A stretch of DNA of 64,000 nucleotides from assembly GCA_015064415.1 (NCBI GenBank), contig SVSG01000004.1, positions 1 through 64,000 of the forward strand, given 5' to 3'. The stretch is from Oscillospiraceae bacterium (GTDB lineage Bacteria > Bacillota > Clostridia > Oscillospirales > CAG-272). Both the position numbers and the translations under genes were made by a program. The notes below the pieces were generated by a model. The model saw nothing but the letters and a program-made list of their open reading frames with translations, was not told where the DNA came from and did no database searches. This document shows, one piece after another, positions 37,448-46,574 of the stretch. Position 1 is the stretch's first letter. The number at the start of each line of letters is the position of its first letter.

Positions 37448-37536
37448 GCCGGAGTGGTGGAATTGGCAGACACCCGGGACTTAAAATCCCGTGGAGAGTG
37501 ATCTCCGTGACGGTTCGACCCCGTTCTCCGGCACCA
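37448..37536 (+). tRNA. tRNA-Leu (TAA), CCA encoded
   Basis: gccggagtggtggaattggcagaca...cgggacttaaaatcccg...ggttcgaccccgttctccggcacca. Confidence 0.96.
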
Positions 37537-37544
37537 ATCCATAT

Positions 37545-37622
<78 letters not shown>

Positions 37623-38156: not shown

Positions 38157-38330
38157 GTGAAACAAGCGACTAAAAGTGACAGAACAAAACAAGTGCAATT
38201 TCGTATGCCAACCGTACTTCATAATCAACTAAGAAAAATATTGATTGATGATAATGTAAGTATGGCAGATTTATTCAACAAGGCGGCAGAAGAATATATC
38301 AAAAATAAAGAAAAGGAGAAAAGAAAATGA
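38157..38330 (+). CDS. Small ribbon-helix-helix (RHH)-like protein
   Basis: GTG start: MKQATKSDRTKQVQFRMPTVLHNQLRKILIDDNVSMADLFNKAAEEYIKNKEKEKRK (57 aa, not in the ORF track); RBS AAAGGAGG; ATGA overlap with the next gene. Confidence 0.75.
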   Translation: MKQATKSDRTKQVQFRMPTVLHNQLRKILIDDNVSMADLFNKAAEEYIKNKEKEKRK

Positions 38331-40144
38331 TTAGAGCTGATATGATTACAACTGTAGGAAGAACATATCTTACAAGCAACATAGAGAATGACGAGTATAG
38401 CTATCCCAAGGCTTTTACCGCGGCATCATTAACTTTTGTTCCTATTCGCAATAGTGCTGGTCGCGCATTTGAAAAGCTGGATATTCGTTTTGTTAAAGAC
38501 AATATTACTGTACTTATAGAAACCAAGCCTAACTTTACAAAATCCGATGAAGAACAGTTATCCGCATATGTAGAATACGAAAAAGCTCTTACTGGGAATA
38601 AAACGATAGCTATCCTAGCTAATACCGCAAATAATAACATAAAAGTTTGGAGAGGTGTCGTTTCTGAGGGCGACTATATGTCGAAGGAAACTGCGCTTCG
38701 TAGCATGGATGAATACGTTGATTTTTACACATCGAAAATTAACGATAAAGAAAAAGTAATGCAGAATACATATAAACTTAATGAGCTTCTACATCGCCAC
38801 AGTGTTCCCGAAAAACTTCGTAGCCAATTTGTTGGAACATGTCTGTTGGCACTTAAAAACGGACTTGAATATTCCACGCCGTCTTTAACAGCGGCACAAA
38901 TTCGAGCAAGAATAAAAGAGGTTTTGGAAGACCTTCTCAATTCGGATATAAACAAGGCAGAAAAGCTTGCTTTGTTGAATAGAAATGTTTTGGGAGATCA
39001 ATATATCCGCCAACTTACTATAGCGGCATTTAGAGAAATCCTTAAATTTATTGAAGATAATATTTTGCCTTTTATAAATGACAAAAGCACATCTGGGCAA
39101 GATCTGTTAAATTTATTCTTTGTTACCTTCAATAAGTATGTTGGCAAGGCTGATAAAAACCAAGCATTTACTCCCGACCACATTACCGATTTTATGTCAA
39201 AAATTACAGGCATTAACAAACACTCCGTTGTGCTTGATCCCTGTTGTGGTAGTGGTTCTTTCCTTGTTCGTGCTATGACTCAAGCACTTGATGATTGTGC
39301 TACTGCCGCTGAACAGGATAAAGTGAAAAAGAATCAAATATTTGGCATTGAGTTTGATGAAAATGTGTATGGTTTAGCTACAACCAATATGTTAATTCAT
39401 TCCGACGGAAATTCGAATATTCGTCAAGGAAGTTGCTTCGCTTTAGCAGATTGGATTAAAGAAGCAAAGCCTTCTATAATACTGATGAACCCACCGTACA
39501 ACGGTCAGCGTATACACTTGCCACAAACTTATGTATCGACTTGGGCCAGAGATAAGAAAGAAGATCCTTCAAAAGGGCTTTACTTTGTAAAATTTATTGC
39601 TGATACACTTAACTCTATAAATCATCAAGCAAAATTGGCGGTATTGTTGCCTGTTGCTTGTGCTATTGGAACAAGTGGTGAAATTTCAAGATTAAAAAAC
39701 GAAATTCTTGAGGAAAACACCCTTGATGCAGTGTTTACACTGCCTAGTGACGTGTTTCACCCAGGTGCAAGCGCTTCTGCATGTTGTATGGTGTTCAAAA
39801 TTGGTATTAAACATAGTGATGTTTCTAACCCCGATACTTTCTTTGGTTATTGTAGAGATGATGGATTTAAAAAGAAGAAGAATTTGGGACGTGTAGAGCA
39901 AATTGATCCTATTACCAATAAAAGCAGGTGGTCTGAAATAGAGAAAAGGTGGATTGATTTGTACCGAAATCGTCAAGCTAAGCCTGGAGAATCGGCAGTA
40001 CATAAAGTTAGCGGTGATGACGAATGGCTTTGTGAAGCTTATATGGAAACAGATTACACCAAACTAACAGAAGATGATTTTCAAAAAACAATAAACGATT
40101 ATCTTGCTTATCTCGTTCGGGAGGGGCGCACATATGAATCTTGA
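38327..40144 (+). CDS. Fused PD-(D/E)XK nuclease / N6-adenine DNA methyltransferase (BcgI-like RM subunit)
   Basis: N-terminal LDIRFVKDNITVLIETKPN (D...ExK); FTPDHITDFM...VLDPCCGSGSFLVRAM...ILMNPPYNGQ (motif IV NPPY). Confidence 0.85.
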   Translation: MIRADMITTVGRTYLTSNIENDEYSYPKAFTAASLTFVPIRNSAGRAFEKLDIRFVKDNITVLIETKPNFTKSDEEQLSAYVEYEKALTGNKTIAILANTANNNIKVWRGVVSEGDYMSKETALRSMDEYVDFYTSKINDKEKVMQNTYKLNELLHRHSVPEKLRSQFVGTCLLALKNGLEYSTPSLTAAQIRARIKEVLEDLLNSDINKAEKLALLNRNVLGDQYIRQLTIAAFREILKFIEDNILPFINDKSTSGQDLLNLFFVTFNKYVGKADKNQAFTPDHITDFMSKITGINKHSVVLDPCCGSGSFLVRAMTQALDDCATAAEQDKVKKNQIFGIEFDENVYGLATTNMLIHSDGNSNIRQGSCFALADWIKEAKPSIILMNPPYNGQRIHLPQTYVSTWARDKKEDPSKGLYFVKFIADTLNSINHQAKLAVLLPVACAIGTSGEISRLKNEILEENTLDAVFTLPSDVFHPGASASACCMVFKIGIKHSDVSNPDTFFGYCRDDGFKKKKNLGRVEQIDPITNKSRWSEIEKRWIDLYRNRQAKPGESAVHKVSGDDEWLCEAYMETDYTKLTEDDFQKTINDYLAYLVREGRTYES

Positions 40145-41141
40145 TGTAACCAAATGGGGACAATTCAAAATTGGTGATTTGTTTCCAATATTGCAAAACG
40201 GAAAAGCAAACCAAGGAATGTTAAGCGACGGTAATGATTGCTTTTATGTAGGAGCTAAAAAAGACGATAATGGTGTAATGTTACATTGCGCTTACGACGA
40301 AGAAATCATACAAAAAGGCAACTGTATCATTTTTATTTGCAATGGTCAAGGTTCTGTTGGATACGCTAACTATATGGACGTTGATTTTATAGGTACGACA
40401 GATATCGTTGCTGGGTACAATGAAAATCTCAATGAGTACAACGGACTATTTATTGCTACAATTCTTTGCCGAGAGCGCCCCAAATATTCCTTCGGAAGAA
40501 AATGGAAAACTCATTTAAGAGAAACAAAAATTAGATTGCCGCAAACGATTGACCAAAAACCGGACTGGGTCTTTATGGATGAATATATAAAGTCATTAAA
40601 GCGCAAGCCATTAACAACGTGTAATCGTAAAAGCGAAGTACTTTCATTAAATGTTGAAGAATGGGGAAACTTTCGCATTGGAGATTTGTTTAATATATAC
40701 AAAGGTAATTCTTTAACAACAGATGATAAAGATGCGTACGAAGGGGATATCCCCTGTGTAAACGGTACAGCCGAAAATAATGGAATTATGTGTTACCTAG
40801 ATAGAAGAATTACAGATAAAGGGTTTACATTTTTCAAGGCACCTTGTCTTACTCTCTCAAGGGTCGGTAATTCGGGAAAAACTTTTTTGCAATCAGCAGA
40901 TTTTTTCGTCGCCGATAATGCCTTTGCCTTACAATTAAAAGAAAGTAACAATAAATTTGTTTATTTATTTTTAAGTGCTATCTTAAATCAAGAAATTTTC
41001 AAATATTCATATGGTCGCACAGTTACAATTGAAAAATATTTGAATAAAAATATCCGATTACCTCAAAAAGCCGACGGCTCTCCGAATTATGAATATATGG
41101 AAAGTTATATAAAATCGTTATCGTACGGAGATAGAATTTAA
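40134..41141 (+). CDS. Type I/BcgI-like specificity (S) subunit with two target-recognition halves
   Basis: Half-repeats: WGQFKIGDLFPILQNGKA...IRLPQTIDQKPDWVFMDEYIKSL and WGNFRIGDLFNIYKGNS...IRLPQKADGSPNYEYMESYIKSL. Confidence 0.88.
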   Translation: MNLDVTKWGQFKIGDLFPILQNGKANQGMLSDGNDCFYVGAKKDDNGVMLHCAYDEEIIQKGNCIIFICNGQGSVGYANYMDVDFIGTTDIVAGYNENLNEYNGLFIATILCRERPKYSFGRKWKTHLRETKIRLPQTIDQKPDWVFMDEYIKSLKRKPLTTCNRKSEVLSLNVEEWGNFRIGDLFNIYKGNSLTTDDKDAYEGDIPCVNGTAENNGIMCYLDRRITDKGFTFFKAPCLTLSRVGNSGKTFLQSADFFVADNAFALQLKESNNKFVYLFLSAILNQEIFKYSYGRTVTIEKYLNKNIRLPQKADGSPNYEYMESYIKSLSYGDRI

Positions 41142-41670: not shown

Positions 41671-42603
41671 TCAAATCGCCTCAAATTGTATTTTGTTTTC
41701 TTTGGCATACTCTGCTGCACGGCTTCCTTCTTTTGCAAAGATGGTCAAATTTTCGCAGCGAGAAAAGCAATGGTCACCCAAAGAAGTGACGGAATCAGGA
41801 ATTGTAATGTTTTTAAGGCTTGTGCAGTGGGTAAAGCAGTTTCTGCCCAAGGAGGTGACAGAATCGGGAATTGTGATACTTTCAAGATTTGTGCAGCAGG
41901 AGAAGCAATGGTCGCCCAAAAAAGTGACAGAATCGGGAATTGTGATGTTTTTAAGACTTGCGCAGTGGGTAAAGCAGCTTCTGCCCAAAGAGGTGACAGA
42001 CCCGTCATAGGGGATGACGCTGTCTTTACATCCTGCAATCAACGAACCGCTTTTCATTTCAATTAAACAATTTCCCGCGCTGCTATACACGGGATTTTTG
42101 CTGTCAACGGTGATGTTTTGAAGATTTATGCAGGAGTGGAAGCAGCCCTCTCCTAAATGGGTGACAGAATCAGGGATTGTGATGCTTTTGAGGTTTATGC
42201 AACCCGAGAAGCAGCCCTCTCCTAAATAGGTGACAGAATCAGGGATTGTGATGCTTTCAAGATTTATGCAGCGGGAAAAGCAGTTATCCCACAAAGAGAT
42301 GACGGAATCGGATATTGTGATGCTTTTAAGGCTCGTGCAGCAGGCGAAGCATCCCACCCGCAAAGAGGTGACGGAATTGGGAATAGTGATGCTTTCAAGA
42401 TTTGTGCAGCGAATGAAGCAGGATCGGCCTAAACGGATGACGGAATCGGGAATCGTGATGCTTTTAAGATTTGTGCAATGAGAGAAACAGCTATCTCCCA
42501 AATATCGAATCGAACCATCGTCTGGGATGATTACGTCGGCATTGTTGCCGGTGTATTTTATCAGCACGCCTTTTTCAATGATAAAATCTTGTATATTGCT
42601 CAT
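41671..42603 (-). CDS. BspA-type leucine-rich-repeat protein
   Basis: Tandem ~23-aa units LxSITIPDSVTxLGxxCFxxCxN, no signal peptide. Confidence 0.93.
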   Translation of the reverse strand: MSNIQDFIIEKGVLIKYTGNNADVIIPDDGSIRYLGDSCFSHCTNLKSITIPDSVIRLGRSCFIRCTNLESITIPNSVTSLRVGCFACCTSLKSITISDSVISLWDNCFSRCINLESITIPDSVTYLGEGCFSGCINLKSITIPDSVTHLGEGCFHSCINLQNITVDSKNPVYSSAGNCLIEMKSGSLIAGCKDSVIPYDGSVTSLGRSCFTHCASLKNITIPDSVTFLGDHCFSCCTNLESITIPDSVTSLGRNCFTHCTSLKNITIPDSVTSLGDHCFSRCENLTIFAKEGSRAAEYAKENKIQFEAI

Positions 42604-42616
42604 TTTAATGTCATGT

Positions 42617-43105
42617 TTATTTAGTGGTGCCTTTAATATGCGTCTGAACAGTCAGCAGCAATTTACCCCCATCGATCAGCAGATTTGCTTTTTTAATGGG
42701 CGTGGGCTTGTCACTGCCGACCACATAGCGATAACAACCCTTGATGCCGTCCTTCTTTTCCGAAAAGAAGCAATAGGCCTCGGTGAGGGCGCCGCTTTCG
42801 GTGAGCAGCTTGACGATCTCATCAGCGCTTTCTTTGCTGCCGTTTCGGTTGATAAGTAACTGTTGATCACGCAAAACCGTGGGCGTGGTGGACATCACGA
42901 CAAGATCGGCTTTTGTTGCAATCATATTGGGGTTGATGTCGCGCCAGATCGTTCCAAGCAGCTTGGGTTTTTGCTTCACGGCATCCCTTGCAAACGAAAA
43001 GCAGATGGTGAAGCTGCTATCAAATGCGGCTGCAATTTCCTCATTTGCGGGTGTTTGCTTCGATTTTTCAAAAAACACGGGCATCGCGCCTTTTTTCTCT
43101 TCCAT
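42617..43105 (-). CDS. Hypothetical protein
   Basis: Open frame with RBS aggacact-like region upstream; no recognised domain. Confidence 0.5.
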   Translation of the reverse strand: MEEKKGAMPVFFEKSKQTPANEEIAAAFDSSFTICFSFARDAVKQKPKLLGTIWRDINPNMIATKADLVVMSTTPTVLRDQQLLINRNGSKESADEIVKLLTESGALTEAYCFFSEKKDGIKGCYRYVVGSDKPTPIKKANLLIDGGKLLLTVQTHIKGTTK

Positions 43106-43260: not shown

Positions 43261-44310
43261 TCAATAGATGATTTTGTAAATATCGGTTACACTGGCAAGG
43301 TGTTTTTCCTCCGCCTTGGAAAGCGGCGCTTTGACATTTAAAAGAATAGCATCCGTCCAACGCGGCATCGAGGAAAGAACGCGTCCGCCATATTTAATCT
43401 GATTGATAGGCGCTTCGCAGACGTGGCTTTTGATATGTTTTCCTAACAAATAGGAACGGATACAATGTTTGATGTAATCCTTGGCTGACGAAGTATCGTT
43501 TGATGTGGAATCGGGAACGCGCGTACGTTTCTCGTACACTTCCAGTACGATTTGCACGTTTTTATGATCGCAAATTTTGTTGTAAAGCTGTGTTACATCT
43601 TCTTTAGGAAAAGCGCTGAAAACCGTATTATCAAATTTGTCGGCCGAGGTTGCCTCATAGAAAGCCAAAGGCTTTTTGTCCTTTTTATCGCCAAACAACA
43701 AGTTTCCGCCTTCACGTGCAAAATTGTCGATGATGAAAACTCGTTCGGGGAAATGGAAATGAAGGAATTTTGAGGAAAACGACAGATGGTTGGAGCAAAA
43801 TACGTTATAGTTCTTGAAATTATGGTCAGAGGGAACTTTATCAAATGTTTCTATGGCATGGCTTAGGATGAGATTGAATTTCAAGACGGATAGGATCGAA
43901 TCTGTCAATTTTTGAAGATCGTTCTCCAAGCAGTCGTATTTGTATGCTTCGATTACATTGGTGCAGGTAGTAAAAAGATTGAGATAGTCCGAATCTTTGC
44001 ATAGTGTTTCGGCAAGCGCATCGAAAAATCCCTCGCGACCGTCATTGGCACTGCGCACCGGCCAAATCGGGTGGGTTTTAAGTGTTTCACCTGCTGCATT
44101 AACGTATCCTGCGTCTTCCTTGATGGTGCCGTAAGAGCGTCTTTGCGGGGAGGCGGCATAAGCCCTGCCGATGATCCAAAGTGCACCGGTCAATCGCTCT
44201 TGATTTGTTAAGAATTGAGGATCTGCCATCAAATACAGAATTTCATTGCCGTACTGGTAAGATTTTTTATTGATGATTTTGAGCTCGTTGTTGAATGCTG
44301 TGATGTTCAT
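43261..44310 (-). CDS. Hypothetical protein (350-aa class)
   Basis: MNITAFNNELKIINKKSYQYGNEILYLMADPQFL...; RBS AGGAG upstream; no recognised family. Confidence 0.6.
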   Translation of the reverse strand: MNITAFNNELKIINKKSYQYGNEILYLMADPQFLTNQERLTGALWIIGRAYAASPQRRSYGTIKEDAGYVNAAGETLKTHPIWPVRSANDGREGFFDALAETLCKDSDYLNLFTTCTNVIEAYKYDCLENDLQKLTDSILSVLKFNLILSHAIETFDKVPSDHNFKNYNVFCSNHLSFSSKFLHFHFPERVFIIDNFAREGGNLLFGDKKDKKPLAFYEATSADKFDNTVFSAFPKEDVTQLYNKICDHKNVQIVLEVYEKRTRVPDSTSNDTSSAKDYIKHCIRSYLLGKHIKSHVCEAPINQIKYGGRVLSSMPRWTDAILLNVKAPLSKAEEKHLASVTDIYKIIY

Positions 44311-44329: not shown

Positions 44330-45979
44330 TTATCGATTTAGTTTGTGGTTTGCATTGGGATCAAGATCCTTTTTGCGCCAAAGTGCATGGATAGCGCCGC
44401 GAGGTGTTTTGTAGGAAATGGTTTTGTTATACGCACCTTGCTTGATAGAAGCGCCAAAACGCTCATAAAGGTGCTTGTCGATCACCACGTGACGCAGCCA
44501 TTTCCCATCCTTTAAACCGTCGATATTTTGCAAGTGCTTGCCGCCGATGTAAAGAAAGCGCAGATGCGGCAAGCCCTTTAAAAAGTCCAGGTTTTGGAAT
44601 TCGCAACCGACGATCTCGAGTTTGTCAAGCTTTTTCCAGGTGGGGCAAACTTTTTTAAAATCTGTTTCATTAAAAGTTGCTCCAGAGAGATCCAGTCTTC
44701 TCAACAAAGGGCAATTTGCTAATTGAGTGATGTTGATGATCCTTGGAGTGACTTTTTTTGCCACATCCACGGATAGGGAGAGCTCTTCCAAAGCTTTAAA
44801 AATAGAAATGTCGGAAAGATCAATTTTATCTTGATTTAAGAAGCGAATGGTTCGTACGTTGGGATAATCATTGAATAACACACTCAAATCTCTCACTGCA
44901 ACGTCAATTGCGAGATGCTTTACGCAATGTGTTTTTCCTTTTTCTTCCAAGCGTTTTCTTGTTGCTCGGTCGCTTGCATAAAGTATGCCGTCGCCCCGAA
45001 GAACGGAATTGTAACGCTCACCTTGCTTGTCTTCTTCACTGGATAAATATTTCGATTGTATGGCAGCGGCGCGTGCGCGGATGAGGTCGCGAAGATCTTG
45101 CGGCGCGATGAGTTCTATTTGGGGTGCGTGCATAAGGGCAAAATTGATTAGCTCTTTTTCGTTTGTTTCAATTTGGAGAGTGACGGAAAAGCACGTTTCT
45201 TCAGGGGTGGTTGGCTGAACGCGCAGATTGTCTTCGCCCCAAGCGTCGTAAAGCTTCATTAAGCCCGGTTTTGTTGCAAAAAACTTGGCACCTTTAACTA
45301 CGTCCCCCGCTTGCAAGGAGGAGTCAGTGCTGCGAATCCATTCCGCTATGCTTTTTTCATCAGGGCGCTTTTTAAAGGAGATATCGCCTTCCACAACGTT
45401 TTCCATCAGATCAATACGATACGGCTGGAGGCAGTCGTTTTGATCTAGTGCCAATAAATAGTATCTTTCATCGTTGAAGTAAATATCAAGGGGAAGGACC
45501 TCATATACCACGCGGAGCGCTTCATCCATAAACTTTTGTGCTTGGAGTTGAAAGGTGACTGTTTTTGTATTTGCGCGTGCTCTGTATAAAACTTTAATAT
45601 GCTCAAAAAGAGTGTCGCGCACGACGTTCCTGCGGTGTGTCTTATAAGATTTGATGTGCGGCGGCTTGTCGAGCGTCTGATCTCTGGGAAGTAAGTCCCA
45701 TACTTTTTGAATCAGTGCCTCGCTTTCCTCGGGCGAAAGCAATTTAGATAGCAGAACGCCTTCGATCAAGGGCATAACATCTTCCTTGCTGAGTGCAGAC
45801 TGGATGAAAAAACCGTTTCTTTTTTTGTCAAATTGGATGTTGCAGTCTTTCATTTTATGAAAAGCGCGCGTGACGGCTCCTTCGCTCACACCGATGGCTT
45901 TGGCAATATTTTCACGCGTCGTACGTCCATTTTTTTGAAGGTACAAATAAATTAAAAGTTCACTCGGTAAGTGTGACAT
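44330..45979 (-). CDS. HTH-WYL transcriptional regulator with C-terminal leucine-rich repeats
   Basis: MSHLPSELLIYLYLQKNGRTTRENIAKAIGVSEGAVTRAFHKM (HTH); LDIYFNDERYYLLALDQNDCLQPYRIDLMENV (WYL-like); LEELSLSVDVAKK...CPLLRRLDLSGATF...LDKLEIVGCEF...LPHLRFLYIGG (LRR). Confidence 0.78.
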   Translation of the reverse strand: MSHLPSELLIYLYLQKNGRTTRENIAKAIGVSEGAVTRAFHKMKDCNIQFDKKRNGFFIQSALSKEDVMPLIEGVLLSKLLSPEESEALIQKVWDLLPRDQTLDKPPHIKSYKTHRRNVVRDTLFEHIKVLYRARANTKTVTFQLQAQKFMDEALRVVYEVLPLDIYFNDERYYLLALDQNDCLQPYRIDLMENVVEGDISFKKRPDEKSIAEWIRSTDSSLQAGDVVKGAKFFATKPGLMKLYDAWGEDNLRVQPTTPEETCFSVTLQIETNEKELINFALMHAPQIELIAPQDLRDLIRARAAAIQSKYLSSEEDKQGERYNSVLRGDGILYASDRATRKRLEEKGKTHCVKHLAIDVAVRDLSVLFNDYPNVRTIRFLNQDKIDLSDISIFKALEELSLSVDVAKKVTPRIINITQLANCPLLRRLDLSGATFNETDFKKVCPTWKKLDKLEIVGCEFQNLDFLKGLPHLRFLYIGGKHLQNIDGLKDGKWLRHVVIDKHLYERFGASIKQGAYNKTISYKTPRGAIHALWRKKDLDPNANHKLNR

Positions 45980-46010: not shown

Positions 46011-46039
46011 ATTATAACACGGAAGCAGAGCGCTGTCAA
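46011..46039 (-). promoter_or_regulatory. Promoter for the WYL regulator
   Basis: Minus strand TTGACA - 17 nt - TATAAT, exact consensus. Confidence 0.8.
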
Positions 46040-46053
46040 TTCCAATTATGCTT

Positions 46054-46079
46054 GTTAAAGTTCAAATTCGCACTTTAAC
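46054..46079. promoter_or_regulatory. Candidate operator between divergent promoters
   Basis: gttaaagt-tcaaattcgc-actttaac: perfect 8-nt arms, 10-nt spacer. Confidence 0.6.
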
Positions 46080-46094
46080 CGCGAAAAATAAGCG

Positions 46095-46123
46095 TTGAAA
46101 AAACAATTTTGAAATGTTATGAT
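46095..46123 (+). promoter_or_regulatory. Promoter of the helicase/MoxR/ligase operon
   Basis: TTGAAA - 17 nt - TATGAT. Confidence 0.7.
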
Positions 46124-46199: not shown

Positions 46200-46574
46200 A
46201 TGCTATTCCATATTTACGCCGATTATGCAAGCGAAGGGCTGATCAAAGCAATTGCGCCAAATTATTTTCCACACGAACCGGTTTTTGATCGTGCCATGAT
46301 TGCAGATGGCACTTGCGGCGAGTGCGAGCGCATGTTAAAGGGCTTTGCCGCCTTTCTCAATCGTGCCACACAAGCAGATGCCGAGCATGTGTTTGTGTTC
46401 GATCTGCTTGATCGCATTGATGAGGCAAAGGGAGGTGAGTTGCTGGAGCTTATGCAGGTGCTTTTCGAGAAAGGCGTTGAGATCCATGCAACAAGTTTTC
46501 ACCTCGAGGGCGCTGTTGTTCAAACGGTATTAGCCGCAGCAAAGCATGCAGGATACCGTACAATCGTTACCTAA
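46200..46574 (+). CDS. Hypothetical protein
   Basis: MLFHIYADYASEGLIKAIAPNYF... with GAGGAG RBS. Confidence 0.6.
   Translation: MLFHIYADYASEGLIKAIAPNYFPHEPVFDRAMIADGTCGECERMLKGFAAFLNRATQADAEHVFVFDLLDRIDEAKGGELLELMQVLFEKGVEIHATSFHLEGAVVQTVLAAAKHAGYRTIVT

Follow-up and report, generated by a model that had tools for sequence, protein, structure and literature searches.

A WYL-family regulator with a C-terminal leucine-rich repeat domain in an acquired island of an Oscillospiraceae bacterium

Nucleotides or nucleic acids are the known or presumed ligands of WYL regulators. The closest described systems, BrxR, CapW and PafBC, are WYL regulators of defence or DNA damage (PMC9122589, PMC9122588, PMC6789036), and approximately two thirds of WYL proteins belong to the HTH-WYL-WCX class (class A) defined by Mueller et al. 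(2019), who display no architectures with fewer than 100 members (PMC6789036). Fusions of WYL to nucleases, helicases, AbiGII, BRCT and TerB were described by Makarova et al. (2014), the leucine-rich repeat (LRR) not being among them (PMC4012209), and the main texts of openly readable papers yielded no report of WYL together with LRR. Here we describe such a protein, encoded in a stretch of 64,000 nucleotides from an Oscillospiraceae bacterium (contig SVSG01000004.1), hereafter referred to as the window.

The WYL-LRR gene is read from the minus strand, from an ATG at 45979, preceded by the strong ribosome-binding site GGAAGGAG, to a stop at 44330. The gene and the domains of its product are as follows:

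44330..45979, minus strand: WYL-LRR regulator of 549 aa, comprising HTH (residues 1-60), WYL (~120-200), WCX (~225-310), a linker and LRR (~345-505)
45797..45979, minus strand: N-terminal winged HTH, residues 1-61, Pfam HTH_24 above cut-off
45050..45622, minus strand: WYL and WCX region, residues ~120-310, PADLOC WYL, Pfam WYL and WCX
44465..44947, minus strand: LRR region of the SDS22/internalin-like class, residues ~345-505, based on LRR_4, the profile comparison with the PDB and a low-confidence fold

The N-terminal domain is recognized by HTH_24 in the Pfam protein scan (residues 7-45, 26.2 bits against a cut-off of 21.9), while the PADLOC WYL model spans residues 119-307 with an E value of 2.7e-18. 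Pfam WYL aligns to residues 126-195 and scores 23.9 bits in the genome search, above its cut-off, and 19.6 bits in the scan of the full-length protein, below it. The Pfam WCX match at residues 273-307 is weak, slightly under the cut-off (20.4 against 23.9 bits); the assignment is backed by a colinear HHalign alignment with relatives from the genus g228, described below, of which four of the five tested pass the WCX cut-off. Carrying an HTH, a WYL domain and a WCX after the WYL, the protein is a member of the HTH-WYL-WCX class. The first-pass annotation had contrasted its repeat-bearing tail with the WCX in which WYL proteins usually end; the repeats do form the C-terminal end, but a WCX is present directly before them. 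The C-terminus is not itself an ordinary WCX, the LRRs coming after the retained one, and because WCX is kept upstream, the domain order identifies the LRRs as added to it rather than substituted for it.

On its own, the segment of residues 321-520 exceeds the LRR_4 gathering cut-off (33.5 against 27 bits); in the full-length Pfam scan, LRR_4 appears at residues 450-490, slightly under its cut-off. Visual inspection distinguishes about seven repeats between residues 353 and ~505. When the isolated piece is compared with PDB sequences, the best matches are mostly LRR proteins (internalins, ANP32, SDS22), each individually weak, with a best E value of 0.003, and a profile of all eleven WYL-LRR proteins matches internalin A over the LRR columns with an E value of 6.5e-36. 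This profile match and the spacing of ~22 residues correspond to the SDS22/internalin class. The LxxLxL count of the region, 11 against 6.3 in shuffled sequences (p 0.03), is only a modest excess, so the LRR claim is carried by the profile evidence. Single-sequence AlphaFold modeling of residues 321-520 produced a strand-helix alternation in which successive strands are spaced by 21-26 residues, at low confidence (pLDDT 55), and Foldseek ranked internalin B first for this low-confidence model (E 1.2e-4, TM 0.43); the full-length single-sequence model was uninformative (pLDDT 38.6). The Pfam and PADLOC domains, combined with LRR_4 on the isolated piece, bear out the earlier proposal that a WYL-family regulator is fused to a real LRR domain.

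To characterize the WYL/WCX core, its residues were compared with those of 57 plain WYL proteins. R188 and D190, near-invariant in WYL, are retained, as is P293. Three other positions differ: residue 145 is leucine where 56 of the 57 have tyrosine, residue 191 is leucine where 53 of the 57 have arginine or lysine, and residue 221 is serine in place of the methionine kept in nearly all plain relatives. These alterations of near-invariant residues suggest that the usual WYL pocket has changed; the loss of Y145, the basic residue 191 and M221 is compatible with, though no proof of, a changed input.

The distribution of the architecture was followed from near relatives to the whole class. Among 59 near relatives only ordinary WYL proteins were found, mostly in frames of 326-425 aa; the one longer frame (L008, 702 aa) contains a WYL gene of 381 aa. 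In the order (245 genomes), all but two of the ~160 best WYL matches listed have frames shorter than 425 aa, and the two exceptions (679 and 498 aa) lack an LRR, being ordinary WYL genes whose frames extend into open sequence upstream. When 196 genomes of the bacterium's own family were searched with the WYL-LRR family profile, the window gene was the only WYL match continuing past WCX into LRRs. In the class-wide search, two long WYL frames proved to be WYL-LRR proteins, and a search of their family, f67, a distant family of the same class, recovered WYL-LRR proteins in ten genomes, all of the genus g228. Nine of these are full-length proteins of ~740 aa, 47-50% identical to the query P0002 or identical to it, and carry a further ~225-aa C-terminal domain after the LRR; this domain, at residues ~515-740 of P0002 (L049:1972-4194) and P0003 (L048:970-3198), has no Pfam match. 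The tenth (L101, 513 aa) is shorter, at 40% identity, and stops after the LRR like the window protein. LRR_4 is above its cut-off in three of the five g228 proteins tested. Plasmids, phages and viral contigs contained no relatives of the window protein, and viral contigs no match to the g228 profile; one hit from a Dormibacterota MAG (L003), 35% identical over residues 332-391, is spurious, running antisense to an RseP-like gene. The architecture, predicted to be uncommon, occurs in one of 196 own-family genomes and was not seen to be common in the genomes searched. It is rare and not unique, since a second clade of ten proteins exists. The searches of f67 also returned WYL-WCX proteins with a sigma-70 region 2-like N-terminus (L102-L113; for example L102:1151-2629; Sigma70_r2 E 2e-4, slightly under cut-off), which form one well-supported clade of 12 and possibly represent a sigma-factor-like family of WYL regulators.

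The two lineages share only 19-22% identity; nonetheless, HHalign aligns the window protein with the g228 clade in one colinear match (residues 62-501, 98.5%, E 2.2e-15), and similar stretches can be recognized, for example NLDFLKGL...LQNIDGL against NLDFLKGL...LENIDGI. The phylogeny of the WYL-WCX core unites the g228 proteins in one group (SH-aLRT 100) and does not place the window protein with them; its branch is very long and its position uncertain. A single fusion ancestral to both is the likely origin; alternatively, independent fusions may have arisen in the two lineages.

Three elements were identified in the region upstream of the gene:

46011..46039, minus strand: sigma-70 consensus promoter TTGACA-17-TATAAT of the WYL-LRR gene, 12 of 12 matches
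46054..46079, no strand assigned: 26-bp palindrome GTTAAAGTTCAAATTCGCACTTTAAC with perfect 8-bp arms, candidate operator
46095..46123, plus strand: divergent promoter-like site, 10 of 12 matches

The palindrome is flanked by the two divergent promoters, between the WYL-LRR gene and a divergent gene annotated at 46119, which probably starts at 46201 judging from its ribosome-binding site. It is the sole exact match in the window, where 0.09 would be expected at three or fewer mismatches, and 294 kb of DNA scanned from the same genome contained no second exact match. In g228, a 24-bp palindrome (best copies AGATGTGACAAATCTGTCACATCT), similar in size and different in sequence, precedes the WYL-LRR start at every one of the ten loci except L098; its midpoints lie 23-98 bp upstream and about half of the copies are strongly symmetric. 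With the training sites, picked for their position upstream of WYL-LRR genes, excluded from the counts, the matrix derived from this palindrome matched 29 more sites across 347 kb of island DNA, compared with four across 235 kb of control loci. Twenty of the 29 are intergenic against 14% expected, with a binomial p of 2.3e-11 that is optimistic, some loci being overlapping or closely related. Because two plain WYL genes have the motif upstream as well, these sites may be read by the WYL-LRR protein, by a plain WYL protein or by both. Given that the g228 WYL-LRR genes have a conserved palindrome upstream and that the window gene is preceded by one of another sequence, autoregulation of WYL-LRR is likely. 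In the g228 islands (L063, L096-L101, L118-L131), many island genes, plain WYL genes among them, have the 24-bp palindrome, approximately GATG-n5-AAATTT-n5-CATC, at a distance of 40-100 bp upstream, a pattern that would correspond to an island-wide regulon.

The window gene and its g228 relatives are both located in accessory islands. The window stretch is acquired: the GC content falls from ~0.59 to 0.37 at the island start and then rises slowly to ~0.5. The main features of the island are the following:

37448..37622, plus strand: tRNA-Leu and tRNA-Met, island edge
38327..41141, plus strand: N6-methyltransferase (type IIG/I-like) and specificity subunit, from Pfam and PADLOC
41671..42603, minus strand: BspA-type LRR_5 protein, Pfam LRR_5 E 2.5e-69, no obvious signal peptide by eye
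42617..43105, minus strand: 162-aa gene of no known family
43261..44310, minus strand: 349-aa gene of no known family, 20 bp downstream of the WYL-LRR gene
48816..54905, plus strand: cassette of SNF2 helicase, MoxR AAA and DUF2201/VWA genes (SNF2-MoxR-DUF2201/VWA-ligase)

The island also encodes a SUFU-domain protein. In the window, PADLOC reported WYL, restriction-modification parts and partial weak helicase matches for SNF2, and no described anti-phage gene set. For the genes at 38327-41141, near the island edge, it favors a type IIG-like enzyme, the N-terminus of which bears a nuclease-like ETK motif. The 349-aa gene is probably in the same operon as the WYL-LRR gene. Its product forms one family with L037:5015-5899 and L038:6224-6880, sharing an SK-LHFH-P...I-D motif, and the L037 member adjoins TIR-like proteins (by eye); a conserved pairing through the 257-aa neighbor of the G476 copy was rejected, HHalign giving a 0.2% probability that the two neighbors are of one family. 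Besides the WYL-LRR gene, Pfam recognizes a single WYL gene in the genome; it is of plain type and lies on this contig at a distance of 22 kb.

Orthologs of the SNF2-MoxR-VWA cassette adjoin WYL-LRR in three of the ten g228 loci (helicase 1,120-1,170 bits), and a fourth genome has the two on short contigs. Only matches of ~50-55% identity were accepted as SNF2 orthologs; those ~40% identical, in frames longer than 2,000 aa, presumably represent conjugative-element helicases. A helicase above 900 bits occurs in 4 of 10 genomes with WYL-LRR and in 5 of 15 without it; there being no association at the level of genomes, the link is a shared island and not an obligate pair. The bacterium's own genome holds a second SNF2-MoxR-VWA cassette (contig C29, 14831-18052; L115), with a helicase 50% identical to that of the window. 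At L116:9113-12700, an SNF2 helicase has a sce7726-family member fused to its N-terminus, and at L099:6050-6610 sce7726 is a separate gene beside WYL-LRR and SNF2, which suggests that sce7726 and the SNF2 helicase are a working pair.

Based on these observations, our tentative proposal, to which we give slightly less than even confidence, is that WYL-LRR is a self-regulating transcription factor of its island whose LRR solenoid reads a protein partner. An intracellular solenoid of the SDS22/internalin class would have been added to the C-terminus of an HTH-WYL-WCX transcription factor, a dimer of which would bind the candidate palindrome in its own promoter region and control its own operon, and probably the divergent gene as well, within an acquired island containing restriction-modification-type genes. 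The LRR surface would serve as the input, binding a protein from an invading element or one encoded by the island; the bound protein would then change DNA binding via the adjoining WCX module, and would be read in place of, or besides, a nucleic-acid ligand. Palindrome binding by WYL-LRR, the direction of regulation and the sensor role of the LRR are what we infer in this scheme. Protein sensing is plausible by analogy with LRR biology in general, and the replacement of Y145 and of the basic residue 191 by leucine weakly helps it. If the LRR reads proteins, a defence-linked WYL switch can be rewired to a protein input, and the relatives with common promoter palindromes make the question of sensing accessible to ordinary binding and reporter assays. 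The broader generalization, in which one-component regulators use an intracellular LRR to recognize an invader-encoded protein and switch the transcription of a defence island, seems to us unlikely; if true, an invader-sensing WYL-LRR protein would be the transcriptional counterpart of LRR-based immune receptors.

A different role for the repeats deserves some weight, although we consider it doubtful: the LRR may be a structural or recruiting module, either scaffolding dimers or multimers or tethering the regulator to an island protein or to RNA polymerase, with sensing left to the WYL/WCX core as in PafBC, BrxR and CapW. The presence of both WYL and WCX and the retention of the near-invariant R188 and D190 speak for such a module, and the domain that follows the LRR in nine relatives could mean that the tail is an assembly platform; the substitutions at positions 145, 191 and 221 suggest instead that the usual pocket is altered. 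It is also conceivable, at a probability we would place quite low, that the partner is encoded in the same island, whether an LRR-type protein (e.g., LRR_5) or another, so that the two would make up a built-in regulator pair instead of a sensor of invaders. The candidate partners in g228 are short LRR_5 proteins of ~195 aa with no obvious signal peptide, encoded 100-150 bp upstream of WYL-LRR on the same strand in five loci:

L063:9830-10414 and L096:6090-6686, also L070, L097 and L100: short LRR_5 gene upstream of WYL-LRR

Seven of the eight full-length copies in the ten genomes are on the WYL-LRR contig, and the window itself has its LRR_5 gene three genes downstream of WYL-LRR; however, the short LRR_5 is absent from four of the ten g228 genomes, and LRR_5 (BspA-type) has 104 matches in the bacterium's own 2.25-Mb draft genome, some in frames longer than 3,000 aa. 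The window copy may thus be there by chance, and LRR_5 is too abundant for this gene to be recognized as a partner. Finally, a WYL gene could have become joined to an adjacent LRR gene by chance or in assembly, with no joint function. The genome is a draft in 43 contigs and the gene lacks close relatives within the family of the bacterium, but the frame is uninterrupted with good start signals, and the recurrence of the same layout in ten other genomes, with a colinear match, largely refutes this explanation, which we hold to be very improbable. The tentatively preferred reading remains an island regulator with a protein-reading LRR.

In comparison with known systems, the window protein resembles the class A WYL regulators PafBC, BrxR and CapW in its order of winged HTH, WYL and WCX, in the location of its gene near defence-type genes and in the palindrome of its promoter region, and differs from the class in the LRR after WCX and in several changed near-invariant WYL/WCX residues. 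With the SDS22/internalin class (internalins A and B, PP1 regulatory subunit 7, Roco LRR), it shares the repeat type and, going by the profile and a low-confidence fold, probably the fold class; unlike these proteins, it is fused to a DNA-binding regulator, and no signal peptide or cell-wall anchor was seen. A pairing like that of the window is present on a mobile element, plasmid pRUMAL01 of Ruminococcus albus 7, where the WYL gene RUMAL_RS18645 is followed by the LRR_5 gene RS18650. There, in contrast, the two are separate genes and the LRR is BspA-type and not SDS22-like; the pairing may be due to chance, and its interpretation as a split fusion was discarded given the different LRR type. 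The nearest counterparts are the g228 WYL-LRR proteins, which have the same HTH-WYL-WCX-LRR layout, a colinear profile match and an accessory-island setting, and are distinguished by the ~225-aa extra C-terminal domain of nine members and by a promoter palindrome of different sequence. Within the literature searched, the window protein is a class A WYL regulator with a previously undescribed LRR addition.
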